Shown here: positions 15,798-22,999 of the stretch, one piece after another | Position numbering within the stretch: position 1 is the stretch's first letter | Layout of the letters: each line of letters starts with the position of its first letter | Origin: a virus | IMG/VR virus record: IMGVR_UViG_3300036715_000394 | Location: 1 to 22,999 of that record | Strand: one strand, 5' to 3' | Length of the DNA: 22,999 bases | Position numbers and translations under genes: made by a program | The notes under the pieces: model-generated | What the model saw: the letters and a program-made list of their open reading frames with translations, nothing else | The model's database searches: none | Told to the model about the DNA's origin: nothing

Positions 15798-16099
15798 GAG
15801 ACGACATCGCCACCAACCCATTCGTCGCGTCTTTCATGGGCGCTCTGGTGGGCCTGAAGGCATGGCCGGGAACATCATGGCTCGACAAGGCCTCGAACCT
15901 GACGCTTGGCTTCCTGATTTCGATCATTGCAGGGCCTGCGATCGTGGACTATCTTGGGGTATCGTCCCCTCGAATCGGTGCGGCCATTGCGTTCGTCTGC
16001 GGCGCGACCGGGCTAGTGCTCTACGCATCCGTTATCGAAGGGATCAGACAGACGAAGTTCGCCGAGATCGTTACTCGGTGGCTTGGGGGCTCGAAATGA
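15794..16099 (+). CDS. Putative holin-like membrane protein
   Basis: 101 residues with the ATG coupled to the previous stop. Hydrophobic segments at about 9-23, 36-55 and 61-81 are separated by short polar turns (PGTSWLDKASN; LGVSSPR), and the C-terminus is amphipathic and basic (RQTKFAEIVTRWLGGSK). The opening NPFVASFMGALVGLKAWPG is a pattern I associate with holin-type proteins in betaproteobacterial phages. A holin would make the membrane lesion that releases the endolysin. No endolysin gene is within the window, so the lysis role remains inference. Confidence 0.55.
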   Translation: MRDDIATNPFVASFMGALVGLKAWPGTSWLDKASNLTLGFLISIIAGPAIVDYLGVSSPRIGAAIAFVCGATGLVLYASVIEGIRQTKFAEIVTRWLGGSK

Positions 16100-16398
16100 A
16101 GGACTTATCGATCTGGATCGACATCATCGTTGTGGCGCTGTGTGCTTTCTCCGTGTTCAGCACTCGCGTGCAGACGGGCTTCTTCGTGTCCGCTGGCTAC
16201 GGTCTGTTCGCCATTGCTGCAATCGCAGACCTTGACCCCACGATCGACGATCAGCGACTGCTGACGGTCGTGCTGGCCGGAGCTGTCTGTGTCGTCGTCG
16301 CGAACCTGATGCGAGCCTTCGGAATCGACACGATCGTTCCGCGAGCGCTCCGCAACGCCCACCCGCAGCACCAGCACCGGAGGGCGACTGACGCCTAG
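16096..16398 (+). CDS. Putative membrane protein, second holin/antiholin candidate
   Basis: 100 residues from an ATG overlapping the previous stop. Three hydrophobic segments at about 6-22, 28-45 and 54-72 are followed by a basic, His-rich tail (PRALRNAHPQHQHRRATDA), giving an N-out/C-in class I holin-like layout. An in-frame ORF extends upstream to 15565, but its residues there are the out-of-frame shadow of the two preceding genes. The stop (TAG 16396-16398) shares bases with the stop of the ASCH gene on the opposite strand. Its partner function with the gene before it (holin plus antiholin) is inferred only from pairing and size. Confidence 0.55.
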   Translation: MKDLSIWIDIIVVALCAFSVFSTRVQTGFFVSAGYGLFAIAAIADLDPTIDDQRLLTVVLAGAVCVVVANLMRAFGIDTIVPRALRNAHPQHQHRRATDA

Positions 16399-16850
16399 CT
16401 GATGACGGGGCAGCGCGCGGTGTACTTCACCTCGCCCTGCGGGAGCGGGTAATCGAACAGCCACTCTTTGTCGATGTCCGTGTCGAGCATCACGACACCC
16501 TCCGCCGGAACATCGAACAAGCGCAGCCGCGAGACGATCGGCGTCGGCCGGCAAAAGCCCACCGGCTTCATCACCCAAGCGAATGAGCTGGCCACATAGT
16601 TGCCCATGGAGGCCCCATCGTCGGCGCGCGTCATCGGTCGGCAATCGACGACCTCGACGACCCCGATCATGCAACCCGCGTGCAGCAGGCGCATCTCTTC
16701 GCGATCCTGCCAGAAGGCATTGTTCGGCGCCGAGCTGGCGCAGATCAGCAAGAACCCCCTGTGCGTGGTCGGCCACGACCTGACCTCGATCGTCTTCGCG
16801 CCATCGACGAGCGCGTAGGCCCACGGCTGGCGCACTGCTAGAGCTTTCAT
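16395..16850 (-). CDS. ASCH-domain protein
   Basis: 151 residues on the minus strand. I chose the ATG at 16850 over a TTG two codons upstream because AGGA lies six bases before it. The start MKALAVRQPWAYALVDGAKTI, then EVRSWPTTHRGFLLICAS, is the classical ASCH opening (hydrophobic-x-x-R-Q-P-W-A, G-x-K-x-x-E-x-R-x-W, R-G); IGVVEVVDC and SSFAWVM match later strands. ASCH proteins adopt a PUA-like fold and bind RNA or modified nucleosides; some hydrolyse N4-acetylcytidine. Whether this one is an enzyme is unknown. It is the only leftward gene in the window, tail-to-tail with the membrane genes, with a palindrome and a divergent promoter region behind its start. Confidence 0.83.
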   Translation of the reverse strand: MKALAVRQPWAYALVDGAKTIEVRSWPTTHRGFLLICASSAPNNAFWQDREEMRLLHAGCMIGVVEVVDCRPMTRADDGASMGNYVASSFAWVMKPVGFCRPTPIVSRLRLFDVPAEGVVMLDTDIDKEWLFDYPLPQGEVKYTARCPVIS

Positions 16851-16888
16851 AGGCAATCCTCACGCTCACAATGAGCGCATCTTTCGAT

Positions 16889-16903
16889 GGTATCACAGAT
16901 ACC
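16889..16903. promoter_or_regulatory. Palindrome GGTATC-ACA-GATACC
   Basis: A perfect 6-bp inverted repeat with a 3-bp spacer, 39 bp upstream of the ASCH start codon. Its left half, extended to GGTATCAC, is also found in the spacers of both rightward promoters (16955-16962 and 20532-20539), just before the -10. It looks like an operator half-site shared by three places; the binding protein is unknown. Confidence 0.45.
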
Positions 16904-16912
16904 GCCACAGAA

Positions 16913-16930
16913 TTAGAGAGGTGACTCTAA
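16913..16930. promoter_or_regulatory. Operator-like palindrome TTAGAG-N6-CTCTAA, copy 1
   Basis: Six-base inverted arms TTAGAG and CTCTAA with spacer AGGTGA, ending nine bases before the -35 of the first accessory promoter. The same palindrome is repeated at copy 2 with spacer AGGTCA. The position upstream of -35 suits an activator or a looping repressor. On the minus strand it includes TCTAAT, a possible -10 for the ASCH gene, though no matching -35 was found. Confidence 0.6.
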
Positions 16931-16939
16931 AATACCGGG

Positions 16940-16968
16940 TTGTCAAACGTCTCAGGTATCACTATCAT
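16940..16968 (+). promoter_or_regulatory. Promoter P1 of the first accessory operon
   Basis: TTGTCA at 16940-16945, a 17-bp spacer and TATCAT at 16963-16968 form a good sigma70-type promoter. The start would be near 16975, giving a leader of about 25 bases to the ATG at 17000, which is preceded by GGAG. The same arrangement, almost base for base, recurs at 20517-20545. Confidence 0.75.
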
Positions 16969-16999
16969 TGCATCATCAACTCAACGAACGGAGCAGAGA

Positions 17000-17284
17000 A
17001 TGCAAGCATCTAACAGATTCGGCCGAGGCTCTCCTGTGTACGCGTGCCGATGCTGTGGCCGCAATACCCGCCAGACGGGTCGCGGCGACAACGAGAACGT
17101 CAACCTGTGCGCGAACTGCTTCGACCTCGCCGGAGAGGAAAACAGCTTGAGCGATACGGGTGACTTTTACGAGTCGCCGGCCTACGTGCTCCAGCTGATC
17201 GAAGGGGTCGCGAAGCTCGGCGGCAACGCGGCATGCTGGCGAGACCTGAAGGCGGCGGCACAGAAGGCGGTGGCGGCGAGCTGA
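17000..17284 (+). CDS. Small zinc-ribbon protein
   Basis: 94 residues. The ATG at 17000 is chosen because GGAG at 16990-16993 is well spaced and promoter P1 lies upstream; a longer reading from the promoter is rejected. C16-x2-C19 and C37-x2-C40 form a treble-clef or zinc-ribbon pair around GRNTRQTGRGDNENVNL, followed by FDLAGEENSLSDTGDF, an arrangement common in small phage and plasmid proteins of unknown role. It would bind one zinc ion and may bind nucleic acid or protein. The last 40 residues form a helix-rich region. First gene of the P1 operon. Confidence 0.72.
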   Translation: MQASNRFGRGSPVYACRCCGRNTRQTGRGDNENVNLCANCFDLAGEENSLSDTGDFYESPAYVLQLIEGVAKLGGNAACWRDLKAAAQKAVAAS

Positions 17285-17291
17285 TTCCAGC

Positions 17292-17312
17292 AGCAAGGGT
17301 TCGGCCCTTGCT
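17292..17312 (+). terminator. Stem-loop after the zinc-ribbon gene (attenuator-like)
   Basis: AGCAAGGG (17292-17299) pairs perfectly with CCCTTGCT (17305-17312) around TTCGG, eight base pairs, starting eight bases after the stop. There is no U-run (CTTGAGATC follows), so it is a poor intrinsic terminator. It more likely protects the 3' end of the first message or reduces read-through. Confidence 0.4.
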
Positions 17313-17335
17313 CTTGAGATCACAACGGAGGTTCT

Positions 17336-17584
17336 ATGTCGAAGGCACAGAAGTGCTACCTGCGCATCGGAAGCGACGCGCTGGAGCAGGCGGAATTTTG
17401 CGGCTCGATCGGCGATGCGCTGGCCGAGTTCGGCGAAGTCGCCCGCGAGCTTGACCGCTACGGCCAGAGCATCGATGCGTCGATTCACTTCGTCGATCGG
17501 CGCAATGACCCGGAGTTGACCGAATACCCTGACCGCGTGCTGAGCCTCGGGCCGCGCGGTGGAATCAAGATGGAGGCCTGCTGA
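17336..17584 (+). CDS. Hypothetical protein
   Basis: 82 residues with GGAGG five bases before the ATG. I do not recognise it. It is a mixed alpha-beta sequence (CYLRIGSDALEQAEFCGSI, ALAEFGEVARELDRYGQ, ASIHFVDRR, PDRVLSLGPRGGIKMEAC). Two strands and an amphipathic helix suggest a small ferredoxin-like domain, but this is only a fold guess. It sits between the stem-loop and the next small gene, overlapping that gene by one base. Confidence 0.6.
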   Translation: MSKAQKCYLRIGSDALEQAEFCGSIGDALAEFGEVARELDRYGQSIDASIHFVDRRNDPELTEYPDRVLSLGPRGGIKMEAC

Positions 17585-17820
17585 TGGCTGCCGAGATCAA
17601 AACCCTGCGCGAGTTCAAGGCGCGCGCCGAGGCGCTCTTCTGGAAAGCAAACCCGCAAGCTGCGCACGCATATCTGCGCTGGGTTCGTGCGAACCCTGTG
17701 AAGCGCTGGGCGAACGGTAAGCCGGGGTTTTCCGGCACGATCGAGGTGCGCGCGGCCGGCTACAGGCCCACGAACATGATCGCGACCTACGTGCGCGGCG
17801 ACGGGCTGGGGGTGCGGTGA
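17584..17820 (+). CDS. Hypothetical protein
   Basis: 78 residues; GGAGG lies 7 bases upstream and the start shares one base with the previous stop. The N-terminal half is helical and aromatic (LREFKARAEALFWKANPQAAHAYLRWVRAN), and the C-terminal half is basic and strand-rich (FSGTIEVRAAGYRPTNMIATYVRG). No family recognised. The net positive charge would allow nucleic-acid contact. Confidence 0.58.
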   Translation: MAAEIKTLREFKARAEALFWKANPQAAHAYLRWVRANPVKRWANGKPGFSGTIEVRAAGYRPTNMIATYVRGDGLGVR

Positions 17821-18026
17821 TGGCTGCCGAGAACTACATCAAGCGCATGGAGCGCGAGCTGCGCGAGGCGAACGATCGCATCGCGCGCGCCGAGATGCAG
17901 ATCACCTCATTCCGCGAGCACCTGATGCTGCCGAAGTTTCGGGCAGAGAGTGAGCTGCAAAACTACATCAATACGTCAGACGTGAGCCGCTGGCTCGATG
18001 ACATCAGCAAGGAGCTTGTCGAATGA
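17820..18026 (+). CDS. Hypothetical coiled-coil protein
   Basis: 68 residues. The ATG at 17820 shares one base with the previous stop, and a GGGGGTG run precedes it. Residues 1-35 form a charged heptad-like helix (NYIKRMERELREANDRIARAEMQI), then LPKFRAESELQNYINTSDVSRWLDDI. The closing part, with LQNYINTSDVSRWLDDI, resembles linkers in small phage proteins, but no function is known. It likely oligomerises. Overlaps the next gene by four bases. Confidence 0.6.
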   Translation: MAAENYIKRMERELREANDRIARAEMQITSFREHLMLPKFRAESELQNYINTSDVSRWLDDISKELVE

Positions 18027-18220
18027 AGATTGCCAGCAGACCATGGTCGCAGACCATCCCGGTTTTCTATGTCGAGTCGGTCAAGGGCCGAGTCGGGGAC
18101 TGGGGTTATACGACCGACTACCAGAAGGCTATTCCGTTGACCGATCGGCAGCAGGCGCGATTCGCCTCTGACTGCCGGCACGTCGGCGTGGTCGCCCGCT
18201 TTATCGAGGTGCCGAAATGA
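18023..18220 (+). CDS. Hypothetical protein
   Basis: 65 residues, ATGA-coupled on both sides. It is beta-rich (TIPVFYVESVKGRVGDWGYTT) followed by YQKAIPLTDRQQARFASDCRHVGVVARFIEV. The sequence pattern 'T-x-x-x-K-A-x-x-L-[ST]-x-x-[QE]' recurs in small proteins of phage accessory operons that I cannot name. No catalytic motif. Confidence 0.58.
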   Translation: MKIASRPWSQTIPVFYVESVKGRVGDWGYTTDYQKAIPLTDRQQARFASDCRHVGVVARFIEVPK

Positions 18221-18393
18221 TTACCGCGCAGGAATTGAAGCATGCGCGTGCGGCCGTCGCCACTGGCAGCCGCATCGCAATCCAAGAGGCCCTGAACGTG
18301 CTCAAGCGCGAAGGCGGCCGACTCACACAGCAACAGTTGGACGAGGCCAAGCGTCTCGGGTACGACATCACCGGAATTGGAGTGAAGTCATGA
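18217..18393 (+). CDS. Hypothetical small helical protein
   Basis: 58 residues: starts MITAQELKHARAAVATGSRI, continues AIQEALNVLKREGGRLTQQQ and ends LDEAKRLGYDITGIGVKS. It is found by following the unbroken ATGA chain between the genes at 18023 and 18390, filling that interval exactly. Two or three helices are predicted by eye. No family recognised. Confidence 0.58.
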   Translation: MITAQELKHARAAVATGSRIAIQEALNVLKREGGRLTQQQLDEAKRLGYDITGIGVKS

Positions 18394-18794
18394 AGTACGC
18401 AGTGCATCAGATCGACGGCCAAGGCATCAGTTTCGGGACGAAGATCAAGTCAGGCGCGACGATTCAATTCGAGGTGCGCCACGTCGATGGAGGCCCGCGA
18501 GCCTTCGCGACCGGCTGCTTCATGCTCGATGGTCTGAGCAAGCAGAAGCTGGCCGGCATGCGCCGATCGGCCGCGAGCCAGTGCGAGGCCTATGAGCGCT
18601 ACCTTGAGCGCACCGGCAACCGATGGGAAGTGCTCCAGAAGGAGAAGGCGGACGCGGCGGCGGCCATCAAGAAGCGCGACGCGCGGATCGAGCAGCTCAC
18701 AAAGCGCATCCCTGAGCTGGAAGCCGAGCTGGAGCAGCTGCGCGGCGAGAAGTCCATGGCCGAGATGGTTCGTCTCGGCAAGGTGCCGGCATGA
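18390..18794 (+). CDS. Hypothetical protein with C-terminal coiled coil
   Basis: 134 residues, coupled on both sides by ATGA. The N-terminal ~55 residues are strand-rich (YAVHQIDGQGISFGTKIKSG, TIQFEVRHVDGG). Residues about 56-130 form a long charged helix, with KEKADAAAAIKKRDARIEQL and LEAELEQLRGEKSMAEM showing heptad spacing. It could be a dimerising or scaffold-like accessory protein. No known family. Confidence 0.62.
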   Translation: MKYAVHQIDGQGISFGTKIKSGATIQFEVRHVDGGPRAFATGCFMLDGLSKQKLAGMRRSAASQCEAYERYLERTGNRWEVLQKEKADAAAAIKKRDARIEQLTKRIPELEAELEQLRGEKSMAEMVRLGKVPA

Positions 18795-18997
18795 GCGTGC
18801 AGCAGGCCTTCGACGTGTACCTCGGAAAGCGGTGCATCGACACCGTATTCGCGACCGGCTACACCGAGGACGAGATGCGTCGCAGCCTCATTGGCCATGA
18901 CGGCTACGATTCCCGGATCACCGTGCGCCTCGCTCGGCCGCGCGCCGCTTCCCCGGCAGTCAGCGGCCGCACCACGCGCGCCGCGAGAGGTCAATGA
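18791..18997 (+). CDS. Hypothetical protein
   Basis: 68 residues, ATGA-coupled. The first 50 residues (QQAFDVYLGKRCIDTVFATG, YTEDEMRRSLIGHDGYDSRI, TVRLAR) resemble the small beta-alpha-beta arrangement of phage accessory proteins with a 'VYLxxxxIDxVFxxG' start. The tail is basic and disordered (RPRAASPAVSGRTTRAARGQ). No function assigned. Confidence 0.6.
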   Translation: MSVQQAFDVYLGKRCIDTVFATGYTEDEMRRSLIGHDGYDSRITVRLARPRAASPAVSGRTTRAARGQ

Positions 18998-19416
18998 TGG
19001 CCGCCGCCCCGACTGCCCCGCGCTGGGCCGCCCTGCGCATCATCGCCCGGCCGCTCCGCGATCACGGGTGGCCACACTCGCACGCCATCATGCAGTCCGG
19101 CGTGCTACTCGACGCAGAGGTGGACGCGGAAAATGGCCTTCTGAGGGCCGCCAGTCTGCCGCAGGCACCTACCCCATTGCCGGGAGAGCCCGTGCTCAGC
19201 AGGGGCGCCTCTGACGCCTTCGCTGAGCGCTTCGCGGCAGACAAGGCGCAGGCGAAGCCGAAGCTGCATCTGGTTTGCGGCCTCTGGGTCTACTCGACAA
19301 GCTCGCAATACGGGCACGACGACGATCGGCACAAGCTGGCGCGGATCGAGTGCCTCCGCAGGAACCAAGTCGAGGGACGGTTCGGCCAATTCTCCGGCGG
19401 AAGGATATTCCGATGA
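18994..19416 (+). CDS. Hypothetical protein
   Basis: 140 residues. Two adjacent ATG codons (18994 and 18997) follow GAGAGG; the first overlaps the previous stop. The middle is Ala/Pro-rich and low in complexity, while the end is more structured (KLHLVCGLWVYSTSSQYGHD, DDRHKLARIECLRRNQVEGR). The composition of the middle suggests a linker. No family recognised. Confidence 0.55.
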   Translation: MMAAAPTAPRWAALRIIARPLRDHGWPHSHAIMQSGVLLDAEVDAENGLLRAASLPQAPTPLPGEPVLSRGASDAFAERFAADKAQAKPKLHLVCGLWVYSTSSQYGHDDDRHKLARIECLRRNQVEGRFGQFSGGRIFR

Positions 19417-19664
19417 GCGACTCGCGCGAAGAGGTGCGCCGAGCGCATGCCGCGCTCTTGGAACTGGTCTGCGTCAAGGAGCTGCGCGAGGAAGTCTCGC
19501 GACGCAAACAGCGCCGACTGTGCTCGATCAAGCGGGACATGACCGAGGTTCAAGAGATTGCCCGGCTTCATGCCGAATGCAAGGTGCGCGAGACTCGCGC
19601 ATGGAAGGAGGCGCGCGCAGTGCTCGCGGCCGCCATCATCAAAGAAGGAGAGCTTCAATCATGA
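19413..19664 (+). CDS. Hypothetical charged helical protein
   Basis: 83 residues; the ATG at 19413 overlaps the previous stop and is preceded by GGAAGGA. Almost entirely helical and charged (REEVRRAHAALLELVCVKEL, REEVSRRKQRRLCSIKRDMT, RLHAECKVRETRAWKEARAV), with a basic centre. DNA or RNA contact is possible. An earlier in-frame reading beginning at 19275 is the shadow of the preceding gene. Confidence 0.58.
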   Translation: MSDSREEVRRAHAALLELVCVKELREEVSRRKQRRLCSIKRDMTEVQEIARLHAECKVRETRAWKEARAVLAAAIIKEGELQS

Positions 19665-19912
19665 CAACCCAGAAAGAAATCGACGACTGGTTCGAGGCCG
19701 GCGTCAAGCATGGCGCAACGCACATGATCGTCGCTTGCGACACGTTCGATCACGAGGACTACCCGATCTACACGACCGGGGCCGAAGAGACGAATCGCGA
19801 GTACCTCGGCAACCTCGGGCAAAACATGCAGCGCGTCATGGAGGTCTACGACCTGAAGGCCGACAAGCACGAGCAGCTCAACGAGAGGCGCACGATGCGT
19901 CTGCCGTCATGA
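19661..19912 (+). CDS. Conserved phage hypothetical protein (DTFDHEDYP type)
   Basis: 83 residues with AAGGAGAG upstream and ATGA coupling. The sequence DDWFEAGVKHGATHMIVACD followed by TFDHEDYPIYTTG and NREYLGNLGQNMQRVMEVYDL is a pattern I recall from many unrelated phages' small ORFs (W-x-x-x-G-x-x-x-G-A-x-H-M-[IL]-V-x-x-D-x-F-D-x-[ED]-D-Y-P-[VI]-Y). The function is unknown. Confidence 0.68.
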   Translation: MTTQKEIDDWFEAGVKHGATHMIVACDTFDHEDYPIYTTGAEETNREYLGNLGQNMQRVMEVYDLKADKHEQLNERRTMRLPS

Positions 19913-20223
19913 GCTACGCGCCCGGCAACGATCGCTTCTACGACCCCGCGGCGATGCGCGGCGTAGTCCCGAGCGAAGGCAAGACGGCCGCCATCAAGCG
20001 CGTCATGCGCAACCGAAGGCATCACTGGCGCGTGGTGCTCGGGTTCAAGTCTCGCGTCATCACGACCCCGAAGCTGCCCTGCGACCCGTTCGAGATTTTC
20101 ATCACCGGCCTGCCCATGTATGCGAAGGAAGGCTGGAAGTCCCTGCCCGTGACGATCCGCGGCAAGAGCGGCCTGTTCAAGCTGGTGGGCACGAAGCTGG
20201 TGGTCTGGGAGCCTGCGCCATGA
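19909..20223 (+). CDS. Hypothetical basic protein
   Basis: 104 residues, start coupled to the previous stop by ATGA. It is strongly basic (KTAAIKRVMRNRRHHWRVVL, GKSGLFKLVGTKLVVWEP), with a central PKLPCDPFEIFITGLPMYAK segment. The C-terminal strands may form a small barrel. I do not recognise a family; the frame upstream of 19909 is a shadow of other genes. Confidence 0.58.
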   Translation: MSYAPGNDRFYDPAAMRGVVPSEGKTAAIKRVMRNRRHHWRVVLGFKSRVITTPKLPCDPFEIFITGLPMYAKEGWKSLPVTIRGKSGLFKLVGTKLVVWEPAP

Positions 20224-20489
20224 GGCGAGAGACTCGGTACGGCACAAGCCCGGAGCTGTCCGCCTTGATGCGCCGCGCGATGGTCGAGCTGCCGCCCGTC
20301 AACTGTCATATGCCTGCGGCCGTGAGCGAGAAGGTACGCGGCCACAAAGTCCGCATCACGGCGAGCTGGGTCGGCCGCAATGGGCACAACGGACTCGCCC
20401 ACACGATTCAGCTCACATGCATGCTCGACGGCCGCCGCGTGAGCCGCGCGCTGCTGTACCGCTACTGCGGAGATGAGGTCAAGAAATAA
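20220..20489 (+). CDS. Hypothetical protein, last of the P1 operon
   Basis: 89 residues, ATGA-coupled to the gene before it. The C-terminal part (HKVRITASWVGRNGHNGLAH, TIQLTCMLDGRRVSRALLYR) is strand-rich. The stop codon (20487-20489) directly abuts the second palindrome, so the P1 operon may end or be attenuated here. No family recognised. Confidence 0.58.
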   Translation: MRRETRYGTSPELSALMRRAMVELPPVNCHMPAAVSEKVRGHKVRITASWVGRNGHNGLAHTIQLTCMLDGRRVSRALLYRYCGDEVKK

Positions 20490-20511
20490 ATTAGAGAGGT
20501 CACTCTAATTT
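20488..20511. promoter_or_regulatory. Operator-like palindrome AAATTAGAG-N6-CTCTAATTT, copy 2
   Basis: Nine-base perfect inverted arms around AGGTCA, a longer palindrome than copy 1 (six-base arms). It begins in the stop codon of the previous gene and ends five bases before the -35. Because it is AT-rich and lacks a GC stem plus U-run, it is not a good intrinsic terminator; an operator is more likely. Confidence 0.62.
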
Positions 20512-20516
20512 ACCTC

Positions 20517-20545
20517 TTGTCAAACGTCTGGGGTATCACTATCAT
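20517..20545 (+). promoter_or_regulatory. Promoter P2 of the second accessory operon
   Basis: TTGTCA (20517-20522), 17-bp spacer, TATCAT (20540-20545). The spacer differs from P1 at only two positions, and the leader shares AACGAACGGAGCAGAGAA with P1, with one extra AACG unit. The expected start is near 20552 and the first gene starts at 20583. Confidence 0.75.
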
Positions 20546-20582
20546 TGCACTATCGAATCAACGAACGAACGGAGCAGAGAAC

Positions 20583-20858
20583 ATGGCAACAGTAGAGCAA
20601 GTAGCCCGTGCCTTTGTGCAGGGCAAGGCGATGAAAGCCGGCAATGCGGCTACCGACGGCAAGGTTTACACGCTGTTCGGCAACGTGATCGCCCGGCACG
20701 GGGACGCGCAACGGCGCGGCATTCAAGGCGATTGGTGCGGCTGGTATTCGGTTTCGACGGCGCGGCACCTGAACGAGATCGCCGACGCGATCGGCAACGG
20801 CCGCCGCTACAGCTACGCGGCGGCGCGCCAGCAAGCGGTAAACACTTTCGACTTCTAA
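20583..20858 (+). CDS. Hypothetical protein, first of the P2 operon
   Basis: 91 residues from the ATG at 20583, GGAG eight bases upstream. Contains QVARAFVQGKAMKAGNAATD, then GKVYTLFGNVIARH and WYSVSTARHLNEIADAIGNG. This looks like a small conserved phage accessory protein ('...LxGNVIARH...TxRHLNxIA...'); the biological role is unknown. It replaces the zinc-ribbon gene at the first position of an otherwise identical promoter unit. Confidence 0.65.
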   Translation: MATVEQVARAFVQGKAMKAGNAATDGKVYTLFGNVIARHGDAQRRGIQGDWCGWYSVSTARHLNEIADAIGNGRRYSYAAARQQAVNTFDF

Positions 20859-20867
20859 GGGGTGAAC

Positions 20868-21083
20868 ATGAAAGCCTATACAACAAAAAGCGGCGCGACC
20901 CAGTTCAAGCCATCGATCGAGCAGCTCAAGCGCGGCGCGAGCGCATACCGAGGCTTCTGCCTCGCATGCGGCAAGTCGCAGGGCGGAACCGAGCCAGACG
21001 CGCGCAAGTACACCTGCGAGCACTGCGGCGCAGAAAAGGTCTACGGCGCTGAAGAGCTGATGCTGATGGGGCTGTACCACTGA
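20868..21083 (+). CDS. Small zinc-ribbon protein
   Basis: 71 residues. The ATG at 20868 follows AGGGG by five bases (a GTG two codons upstream is less well placed). C31-x2-C34 and C50-x2-C53, with ARKYTCEHCGAEKVYGAEEL, form a zinc ribbon. Unlike the P1 zinc protein, the knuckle sits in the middle and is followed by a short helix ending GAEELMLMGLYH, a pattern seen in small phage proteins. A nucleic-acid or transcription-related role is possible but unproven. Confidence 0.68.
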   Translation: MKAYTTKSGATQFKPSIEQLKRGASAYRGFCLACGKSQGGTEPDARKYTCEHCGAEKVYGAEELMLMGLYH

Positions 21084-21090
21084 GAAGGCC

Positions 21091-21215
21091 GGCGCGAGAG
21101 ATCGCGCCAGTCGATAGGGCATGGCACTGGGCTGGGTTCGATTCCCGGCGCGCGCCCGGGAGTGATCGCCCGGGTTCGTAACTGGAGCAGCTGCACCAGT
21201 GCCATGCCCTATCGA
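21091..21215. other. Structured element: 20-bp perfect inverted repeat with tRNA-like T-arm
   Basis: In the 150-bp gap after the zinc-ribbon gene: GGCGCG (21091-21096) / CGCGCC (21103-21108) makes a first hairpin; 21111-21130 is perfectly complementary to 21196-21215; inside, GCTG/CAGC (21131-21134 / 21188-21191) and TCCCGG/CCGGGA (21143-21148 / 21156-21161) extend it. The inner part contains GGGTTCGATTCCC (21134-21146), the classic T-arm, followed by a CGCGCGC stretch that could pair with 21092-21098 in acceptor-stem fashion. No anticodon stem or CCA is found, so it is not a working tRNA. A structured RNA, a decayed tRNA or a recombination relic all fit. Confidence 0.55.
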
Positions 21216-21233
21216 AACAGCCAAGGGGGCAAC

Positions 21234-21425
21234 ATGGATTTTCGTTTCAGCAATCACGGCAGCATCTGCCTGCTCAAGCCGACGAGCGAGGCCGGCAAGG
21301 CGTGGGTGGACGAACACCTGACTGGCGACGAGGTGCAAACCTATGCCGGCGCCGTTGTGATCGAGCCGCGCTACGCGCAGCCGATTCTCGACGGGATCAT
21401 CAATGACGGACTGGAGGTCGGTTAA
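21234..21425 (+). CDS. Conserved small phage protein (MDFRFSNHG type)
   Basis: 63 residues; AAGGGGG at 21223-21229 sets the ATG at 21234, so an upstream GTG inside the hairpin is rejected. MDFRFSNHGSICLLKPTSEA, then GKAWVDEHLTGDEVQTYAGA and VVIEPRYAQPILDGIINDG match a very widespread phage protein family of unknown function (M-D-F-x-[VF]-S-N-H-G-[ST]-I-x-L-L-x-P). It directly follows the structured element, whose 3' arm ends eight bases before its ribosome site, so folding could affect its translation. Confidence 0.78.
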   Translation: MDFRFSNHGSICLLKPTSEAGKAWVDEHLTGDEVQTYAGAVVIEPRYAQPILDGIINDGLEVG

Positions 21426-21427
21426 TC

Positions 21428-21799
21428 ATGCTTGCATTCACTTCAGCGAAGGAGCTGCGCGAGGCTGTATCAGAAGCGCGCAGCATTGCCAAGGTCGAGG
21501 CCGAGCGCAGCTGTGGCCGGGGCTTCCTGTCATCGCGCGGCGCATGGTTCATCGCGACGCGCGACAACGGCGCCGAGTCGAATGCGACCGACGGCACGAT
21601 CGAATTCAAGGGCACGCAGAAACAGCTCGACGACGAGATCGCGCGCCTGCGCCTCGACTGCCCGGACATCAATGCCATCTACATCGAGGGCGGGTTCAAC
21701 TTCGCCGAAACGATGGCCGACTTGCGCGACCATGTCTATGAGCCATGGGTGAGCGAATGGTCGGTGCTCGCGTGGTCGCGTGATCGGGATGCGTCATGA
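21428..21799 (+). CDS. Hypothetical protein
   Basis: 123 residues with GGAGG upstream (in the end of the previous gene). Features: SAKELREAVSEARSIAKVEA, a glycine-rich turn, RGAWFIATRDNG, then TQKQLDDEIARLRLDCPDIN and AIYIEGGFNFAETMADLRDH. Alternating helices and short strands suggest a small globular domain. No family is recognised. Confidence 0.6.
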   Translation: MLAFTSAKELREAVSEARSIAKVEAERSCGRGFLSSRGAWFIATRDNGAESNATDGTIEFKGTQKQLDDEIARLRLDCPDINAIYIEGGFNFAETMADLRDHVYEPWVSEWSVLAWSRDRDAS

Positions 21800-22008
21800 G
21801 CGACTTCGCCTACACCCCATGGCGGCATGGGGGCTGGTACGTGCATGGCGTGCGCTATCCGGGCGGCGCGTGTGGCTGCGTCAGTCGCAACTACGTGGAC
21901 AAGAAGTGGCGCATCGTGTGCGACTCTCGGCCGGGCGACATCACCTACCCGAGCCGCGATGCCGCGGCCCGAGCTGAGCGAGAGATCGCGCAAGGGGCGC
22001 CCGCATGA
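21796..22008 (+). CDS. Conserved small phage protein (TPWRHGGWYV type)
   Basis: 70 residues, ATGA-coupled. TPWRHGGWYVHGVRYPGGAC followed by GCVSRNYVDKKWRIVCD and YPSRDAAARAEREI is a recognisable pattern in many proteobacterial phages, where the protein is annotated only as hypothetical. Beta-hairpins and one helix are likely. Its conservation argues for a real gene; its role is unknown. Confidence 0.72.
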   Translation: MSDFAYTPWRHGGWYVHGVRYPGGACGCVSRNYVDKKWRIVCDSRPGDITYPSRDAAARAEREIAQGAPA

Positions 22009-22226
22009 AGACCCCGCAACAGGCCGAATTCGTCTCCGATCTTGTCGGCGCCGTGCTGGCCGACATCCTGAAGAAGCTGGTCGATGGCCGCATACCCGAA
22101 GAGTGGGACGGCATCGAGCTGCGCCAGTATCTCGCCGATCAATTCGGTCACTGCGTCATCGTCGGCACCATGGGCCGCAGGCGCTCGGCCGAGTACCGCA
22201 ACGAAGTCATCGTGAGGAATCTATGA
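22005..22226 (+). CDS. Hypothetical protein
   Basis: 73 residues, start overlapping the previous stop. Helical first half (QQAEFVSDLVGAVLADILKK), then GRIPEEWDGIELRQYLADQF and a C-terminal GTMGRRRSAEYRNEVIVRNL. The pattern 'R-I-P-E-E-W-D-G-x-E-L-R-x-x-[LI]-A-D' is common in phage accessory ORFs, but I know no function. Confidence 0.65.
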   Translation: MKTPQQAEFVSDLVGAVLADILKKLVDGRIPEEWDGIELRQYLADQFGHCVIVGTMGRRRSAEYRNEVIVRNL

Positions 22227-22507
22227 GCACGCATGCAATGTCCGCAGAAGAGATGCTCGATCGCCTGATCGCGCCTGAGTCGGTCGCGTATCTGAGCCCG
22301 AGTCATGCCCGCGCATGCCGATGGGCCGTAGAAGAAATCAAGCGACTGCGCGCCGTGCTCTACCCCGAGCCGGCCGCGCCGCAGTCGATCAACGAGCGGC
22401 AGTTGGCGCAAGCGCTGCGCGCGTTCAAGCAAGACCCGACCCCGCGGCTCGCGACGGCAATCGCGCAGCTGAACAAAGCCATCCGAAAAGAAGGAGCCAG
22501 ATCATGA
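22223..22507 (+). CDS. Hypothetical helical protein
   Basis: 94 residues from the ATG at 22223 (GAGGA six bases upstream; ATGA with the previous gene). Helix-rich: AEEMLDRLIAPESVAYLSPS, ARACRWAVEEIKRLRAVLYP, then RQLAQALRAFKQDPTPRLAT. The frame upstream of this ATG, back to 21827, is a shadow. No family is recognised. Confidence 0.58.
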   Translation: MSTHAMSAEEMLDRLIAPESVAYLSPSHARACRWAVEEIKRLRAVLYPEPAAPQSINERQLAQALRAFKQDPTPRLATAIAQLNKAIRKEGARS

Positions 22508-22929
22508 AGTACAGGCTCGCGCTCGCCCTGCTGCTGTCCGCTTCAGCGCACGCGCAGACGGTCGGCATCCACACAGTCAGCGTTCACGAGAATGAGGGCT
22601 ACAACAACGTCAACCCCGGCCTGTACCTGCGGCTCGACAACGGCGTGACTCTAGGGACTCTGCGAAACAGCGAGTCGCGGCAGAGCGTCTACGTCGGATA
22701 CACGGCAGAGACGCCGGCATGGCATGCCCTGCGCGCGGCCGTGACGGTCGGCGGCATCACTGGGTACAGGGCCGCGCCCGTCATGCCACTCGTCGTGCCG
22801 AGCGTCGCCTACGAGTTCGCGCCGACGTTCCGCGTGCGCCTTGGGTACATCCCCCGGCCGCCCGTGAAGAACTCGTCGTCAGCGCTGAGTCTGATGTTTG
22901 AAATGGACTGGTCAAAGGAGTGGTCATGA
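22504..22929 (+). CDS. Exported, probably beta-barrel-like phage protein
   Basis: 141 residues; AAGGAG upstream fixes the ATG at 22504. A clear Sec signal peptide (MKYRLALALLLSASAHA, cleavage A-H-A before Q18) is followed by about 124 residues of alternating strands: YNNVNPGLYLRLDNGVTLGT, QSVYVGYTAETPAWHALRAA, VGGITGYRAAPVMPLVVPSV, FRVRLGYIPRP, and a final SLMFEMDW with an outer-membrane-type hydrophobic/aromatic alternation. I recall similar short phage-encoded exported proteins without assigned function. Surface alteration, such as superinfection exclusion, is a plausible but unproven role. It is coupled by ATGA to a following gene that leaves the window. Confidence 0.66.
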   Translation: MKYRLALALLLSASAHAQTVGIHTVSVHENEGYNNVNPGLYLRLDNGVTLGTLRNSESRQSVYVGYTAETPAWHALRAAVTVGGITGYRAAPVMPLVVPSVAYEFAPTFRVRLGYIPRPPVKNSSSALSLMFEMDWSKEWS

Positions 22930-22999
22930 AGAAGCCAAAGCAAACGAAGCAAGTGCAGCACCACCCGGCCCACCGAGCGCCCCACGGACTGCCCGAGCA
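22926..22999 (+). CDS. Hypothetical basic protein, 3' partial
   Basis: ATGA-coupled to the exported-protein gene; 24 complete codons are visible before the right edge. The start is very basic and His/Pro-rich (MKKPKQTKQVQHHPAHRAPH). Too little is visible to assign a family. Confidence 0.5.
   Translation, partial: MKKPKQTKQVQHHPAHRAPHGLPE

Follow-up and report, generated by a model that had tools for sequence, protein, structure and literature searches.

A perfect 20-bp inverted repeat enclosing a T-arm-like hairpin in a phage operon: a candidate intercistronic RNA-processing or insulating element

RNase III cuts the transcripts of phages lambda, T7 and T3, as well as many intergenic sites (PMC5371410). 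The RNase III hairpins of these phages have a long intercistronic stem, lie on the coding strand and lack a terminator U-run, and the element described here resembles them in each of these respects. Unlike theirs, its stem is perfect and closes a three-way junction that includes a T-arm-like hairpin, and its cleavage is a prediction. The element also resembles MITEs and REP/BIME-like mini-elements in being an intergenic unit of about 105 bp with 20-bp inverted repeats, whereas it is present as a single copy, shows no target duplication and is without relatives in the phages, plasmids and viral contigs searched. With the mascRNA-menRNA family (RF01684) and the T-arm of tRNAs it shares a T-stem of 5-6 bp, a UUCGAUU loop and a preceding GGCAC. 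In contrast to mascRNA, which has no long inverted repeat, it has neither an acceptor stem in its favoured fold nor a CCA, and its 17.5 bits fall short of the gathering score, 42.5.

The DNA that was analysed (here called the window, meaning the whole stretch) is a fragment of 22,999 bases from an uncultured tailed phage. Its genes for neck, tail-terminator, tape-measure, tail-tip, tail fibre assembly and holin proteins precede an operon of small genes, and the element was found in this operon. Judging from the sequence, the promoter at 20517 should drive the genes at 20583, 20868, 21234, 21428, 21796 and 22005. Intergenic distances in this operon are mostly 0-10 bases, the only large gap being one of 150 nt at 21083-21234. 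The element (21091-21215, 125 bases) fills this gap, beginning 7 nt past the stop codon of the upstream gene and ending 18 nt ahead of the next ATG. The upstream protein is 44-63% identical to its relatives, and its CxxC...CxxC motif is invariant in their alignment. The downstream gene has 19 relatives in viral contigs and is preceded by a purine tract, AAGGGGG (21223-21229). Near-identical promoter blocks are present at 16911-16990 and 20489-20567 (51 bp plus 26 bp, 88% identity), each consisting of the palindrome TTAGAG..CTCTAA and then TTGTCA-17-TATCAT; they head two gene clusters 3.58 kb apart and are probably sites for a common regulator.

Table 1. Features of the element and its surroundings, in window coordinates.
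Feature	Position	Strand	Sequence or description	Basis or remark
Operator-like palindrome	about 20489-20510		TTAGAG..CTCTAA	just upstream of the 20517 promoter
Sigma-70-like promoter	20517-20545	+	TTGTCA-17-TATCAT	promoter scan; one of only two matches in 16000-22999
Upstream gene	20868-21083	+	71-aa four-cysteine (zinc-ribbon-like) phage protein	related proteins occur in many phage contigs
P0 hairpin	21091-21108	+	GGCGCGA-GAGA-TCGCGCC; 7 bp, GAGA loop	RNA fold
P1, 5' arm	21111-21130	+	TCGATAGGGCATGGCACTGG	perfect inverted repeat
P2, T-arm-like hairpin	21131-21149	+	GCTGGG-TTCGATT-CCCGGC	pattern search and RNA fold
P3 hairpin	21150-21179	+	GCG.GCCCGGG-AGTGATCG-CCCGGGT.CGT; near the element centre	RNA fold
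P1, 3' arm	21196-21215	+	CCAGTGCCATGCCCTATCGA	perfect inverted repeat
Downstream gene	21234-21425	+	63-aa phage protein of unknown function	homologues begin at the same residue

The two arms of P1 are 100% complementary over 20 bp and are separated by a 65-nt spacer. P1 is the longest perfect inverted repeat in the window for spacers up to 150, the runner-up having 10 bp, and its arms occur once within the window. From base composition, about 8e-6 perfect 20-bp arms would be expected with spacers up to 150, and among 200 Markov-1 simulations of the window no perfect arm was longer than 16. The original prediction that this stem lies far beyond chance is thus borne out.

The 105-nt element folds with a predicted energy of -70.6 kcal/mol, compared with a mean of -42.5 for shuffled sequences (z = -8.0); none of the 200 shuffles was as good. 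The minus strand gives -63.8, so that the better strand is that of the operon direction. These fold statistics, the exact fit to the intergenic gap and the lack of coding signal all support the earlier description of a non-coding structured element, and a search for alternative coding on both strands yielded mechanical ORFs only. Pairing probabilities are about 1 for P1, except at two end pairs, and about 0.57 for P2, and a 16-base stretch just 5' of the P1 3' arm is largely unpaired. The hairpin that had been noted ahead of the repeat (GGCGCG/CGCGCC) is indeed present, as P0, with 7 bp rather than 6. An acceptor-like pairing between 21092-21098 and 21149-21155, also part of the original prediction, is not predicted to form: it contains one A-G mismatch and would require P0 to break.

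Within the P1 loop lies GGGTTCGATTCCC (21134-21146), and what had been recognised as a tRNA T-arm motif inside the inverted repeat is a canonical T-arm hairpin, GCUGGG-UUCGAUU-CCCGGC in RNA letters. The T-arm pattern GGGTTCRANYCCC, with a three-pair G-C stem, is expected about 0.01 times per window. A looser pattern, GGTTCRANYCC, has one further occurrence in the window, inside a tail gene; because the T-loop pattern recurs there, we regard the match in P2 as notable, not decisive. The minimal site of TruB is GUUYRANYC in a 17-nt T-arm (PMC7912444), and GUUCGAUUC (21136-21144), with a stem of 5-6 bp, fits this pseudouridine-55 site. Since the motif is satisfied, P2 could be pseudouridylated, which we offer as a prediction only.

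A tRNA-related interpretation is not supported beyond this one hairpin. ARAGORN, which had been proposed as a check, called no gene at its default threshold, and with the score threshold halved its sole output was a spurious tRNA-Ser. Neither the tRNA model of Rfam (RF00005) nor any other Rfam family at its gathering score matches the element, and the relaxed Rfam matches were dismissed as chance microRNA-type hairpins. A tRNA or tmRNA is rejected on these grounds, the T-arm being the sole tRNA part; the anticodon stem and CCA are missing, as first described. Readings as tRNA-Sec or mascRNA reached 17 bits, where the gathering scores are 47 and 42.5, and an anticodon-less RNA of the mascRNA type, with its acceptor coaxial with the T-arm, fails at the 17.5 bits given above. 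A tRNA-like fold that uses 21091-21096 as the acceptor strand, with a D-like arm and the T-arm, has an energy of -21.5 compared with -34.6 kcal/mol for the best local fold, and the suggested tRNA mimic is thus disfavoured by about 13 kcal/mol. A substrate of RNase P is likewise rejected: in the favoured fold, P3 and not an acceptor stem follows the 3' strand of the T-stem, so that the coaxial acceptor/T helix required by RNase P is absent, and there is no CCA. In sphingomonad plasmids (L129, L130 and L132, at about 290-330) a perfect hairpin capped by a T-loop-like sequence, GCGCGCGCCGGG-TTCGATG-CCCGGCGCGCGC, is conserved ahead of a DUF2493 gene and is unannotated. As GC-rich T-loop hairpins exist outside tRNAs, the T-arm motif alone is no proof of origin.

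Within the searched collections, which may lack close relatives of the window, the element is an orphan. Neither the T-arm element nor an enclosing inverted repeat comparable to P1 is present at the corresponding place in any of 80 phage loci with a relative of the upstream gene or in any of 19 loci with a relative of the downstream 63-aa gene. The exact arms and the T-arm extension were absent from 2.9 million viral contigs in a pattern scan, and blastn against phages and plasmids returned short matches only, with no full-element match. A covariance model built on the single sequence gave no convincing homologue when run over loci totalling 520 kb and over 22 phage records; its one weak match, at locus L098, is to the T-arm only. 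A relaxed pattern of GGCACT plus T-arm matched 15 loci, none with the inverted repeat; these were tRNA-His genes of the ordinary kind, two protein-coding genes and several phage tRNA-likes of non-canonical form. No close relative of the whole phage was found by megablast with the window, or by searches with the 997-aa tail protein (against viral contigs) and with the 123-aa neighbour.

An intercistronic RNA element is the best single interpretation, given that the fold is stronger on the operon strand, that the element fits the gap exactly and that no terminator is present. An intrinsic terminator was rejected: there is no U-run, CCCUAUCGAAACAGCC ends and follows the stem, and a terminator scan was negative. 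We tentatively propose that the element is a phage-specific intercistronic hairpin with a predicted function as an RNase III-type processing site or an insulator. The 20-bp stem of P1 would form on the polycistronic mRNA from the 20517 promoter, where P2 would be able to stack on the 5' strand of P1, giving about 26 bp of helix, with P3 alongside. The long duplex of P1 could be a site for RNase III-type cleavage, or a hairpin that stabilises and insulates; it would keep the two-gene segment on its upstream side apart from the segment downstream and set the mRNA ends of both. P2 may be incidental, or may be a TruB-type modification or docking motif that the element carries. The stem provides the length of double-stranded RNA expected of an RNase III hairpin (about 20 bp or more), in an intercistronic region that should be transcribed. 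Natural RNase III sites often contain internal loops, and the lack of these in P1 counts against RNase III-type processing. An RNA element is also made less likely by the absence of a homologue beside either flanking gene or elsewhere in the searches, and a perfect repeat may equally come from the DNA level. If the element is an RNA-processing site, it would be a further example of how phages with few promoters set separate gene levels within one transcript, and if its T-loop is functional, it would represent an uncommon phage messenger RNA that displays part of a tRNA. We consider the predicted structure real and unusual, its simplest interpretation being a hairpin for RNA processing or insulation.

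The main rival to an RNA element is a DNA-level origin, which we consider rather unlikely: a small cassette or MITE-like element inserted with 20-bp inverted repeats at its termini, or a quasi-palindrome perfected by template switching in replication, in either case with little or no RNA function. The orphan state of the element, with no relative having one at the same place, is consistent with such an origin, as is the ordinary 25-nt gap, with its purine tract ahead of the ATG, that would remain if 21091-21215 were excised. TCGA, present on both outer ends, could belong to the repeat or represent a palindromic target that was duplicated; no target duplication was found outside the arms, however. 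MITEs and mobile elements are recognised by such duplications and by multiple copies or empty sites, and the element exists in one copy in the window. Moreover, the arms are missing from the 2.9 million viral contigs and the full element from phages and plasmids, unlike known repeated elements, and P0 falls outside the repeat. Long perfect repeats with spacers of 50-90 nt do occur sporadically in phage loci, with unrelated sequences, which favours a DNA-level origin; one at locus L064 has 23 bp and a spacer of 51. Others were seen in phages with a zinc-ribbon-like gene, namely 22 bp with a spacer of 71 in Bdellovibrio phage phi1422 (L010, 4543-4657) and 20 bp with a spacer of 83 in L029 (4846-4968). 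If the element is a palindrome only, it shows how easily a motif-rich hairpin is mistaken for a tRNA mimic.

Descent from a tRNA is doubtful. The 3' part of a tRNA (T-arm and the start of the acceptor), gained as the attachment core of an integrase or remaining from a phage tRNA gene, would later have been caught in the repeat. The canonical T-arm, with its 5-6 bp stem and UUCGAUU loop, points in this direction, and the D-arm-like GGCAC ahead of it can be compared with several non-canonical phage tRNA-likes. Positions 21112-21148 weakly resemble an anticodon-less tRNA-like element of phage LfeSau (86% over 37 nt, E 0.01), a match that consists mostly of T-arm letters. The negative ARAGORN and RF00005 results and the low tRNA-Sec and mascRNA scores (17 bits, far under the gathering scores) argue against a remnant, as do the acceptor partner, which requires P0 to be broken, the missing CCA and the existence of GC-rich T-loop hairpins outside tRNAs, for example in sphingomonad plasmids. 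No integrase was identified among the genes of the window scanned against PHROGs, the contig being a fragment.

The element of Lactobacillus phage LfeSau (KP027015; L008/L104, 32-80) is an unannotated 49-nt anticodon-less tRNA-like RNA that scores 30 bits to mascRNA. It has an 8-bp acceptor, a short GTG..CAC D-like arm and a canonical T-arm; a terminator comes next, with a terminase small subunit gene downstream. At L098 (5743-5793, minus strand) a compact tRNA-like cloverleaf without an anticodon arm, with the acceptor GCCCGCC/GGCGGGC, lies directly 3' of a gene that, by its place in the gene order, probably encodes the major capsid protein; the fold of this cloverleaf is no better than shuffles (z -0.7). 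Further tRNA-likes that ARAGORN does not call are present in Klebsiella phage Menlow (L009, about 486-626) and at L092, L093/L099, L094, L095, L101 and L105. These have T-arms and apparent acceptor strands, and several belong to phage tRNA arrays or adjoin them. In Menlow, about 130 nt separate GGGTGCG from CGCACTC.

There is a slighter chance that a discrete small RNA, a mimic or decoy of the tRNA elbow, is freed from the operon transcript and acts in trans. Its predicted fold is compact, with the T-loop and a second capped hairpin, and the T-loop fits the minimal TruB site GUUYRANYC (PMC7912444). On the other side, neither a promoter nor a terminator of its own was found, no Rfam family matches and the covariance-model search detected no conservation. 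Very improbable is a new kind of phage RNA, in which the three-way junction and 20-bp stem would combine with elbow binding through the T-loop, the RNA being modified by, or sequestering, host tRNA enzymes (TruB, RNase P or others) as the mRNA is co-processed.

Least likely, and barely credible, is a cis-acting translation switch for the 63-aa gene, as once suggested, or read-through of the TGA at 21081 into the frame open to 21425: the element does directly adjoin this gene on its upstream side, and the reading frame stays open from 21084 to the end of the gene, with a hairpin 7 nt past the stop, but a 51-codon open run is not unusual at 64% GC, the ATG and much of the purine tract are largely unpaired and mostly outside the stem, the homologues of the 63-aa protein share approximately the same starting residue, with no such leader at any of 19 loci, and the relatives of the upstream protein either lack a C-terminal extension or carry an unrelated one. 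Selenocysteine incorporation or read-through was rejected, no homologous extension having been found.

Several other features of the window were observed. A minus-strand gene with an ASCH domain (16395-16853) lies, on the opposite strand, between the holin and the small-gene operon. The gene at 22504-22929 resembles PagP (lipid A palmitoyltransferase/antimicrobial peptide resistance, phrog_3600) and is likely a moron. A tail protein encoded at 576-1480 contains eleven degenerate repeats of ~60 bases, corresponding to 20-aa units rich in Ala, Ser and Thr.
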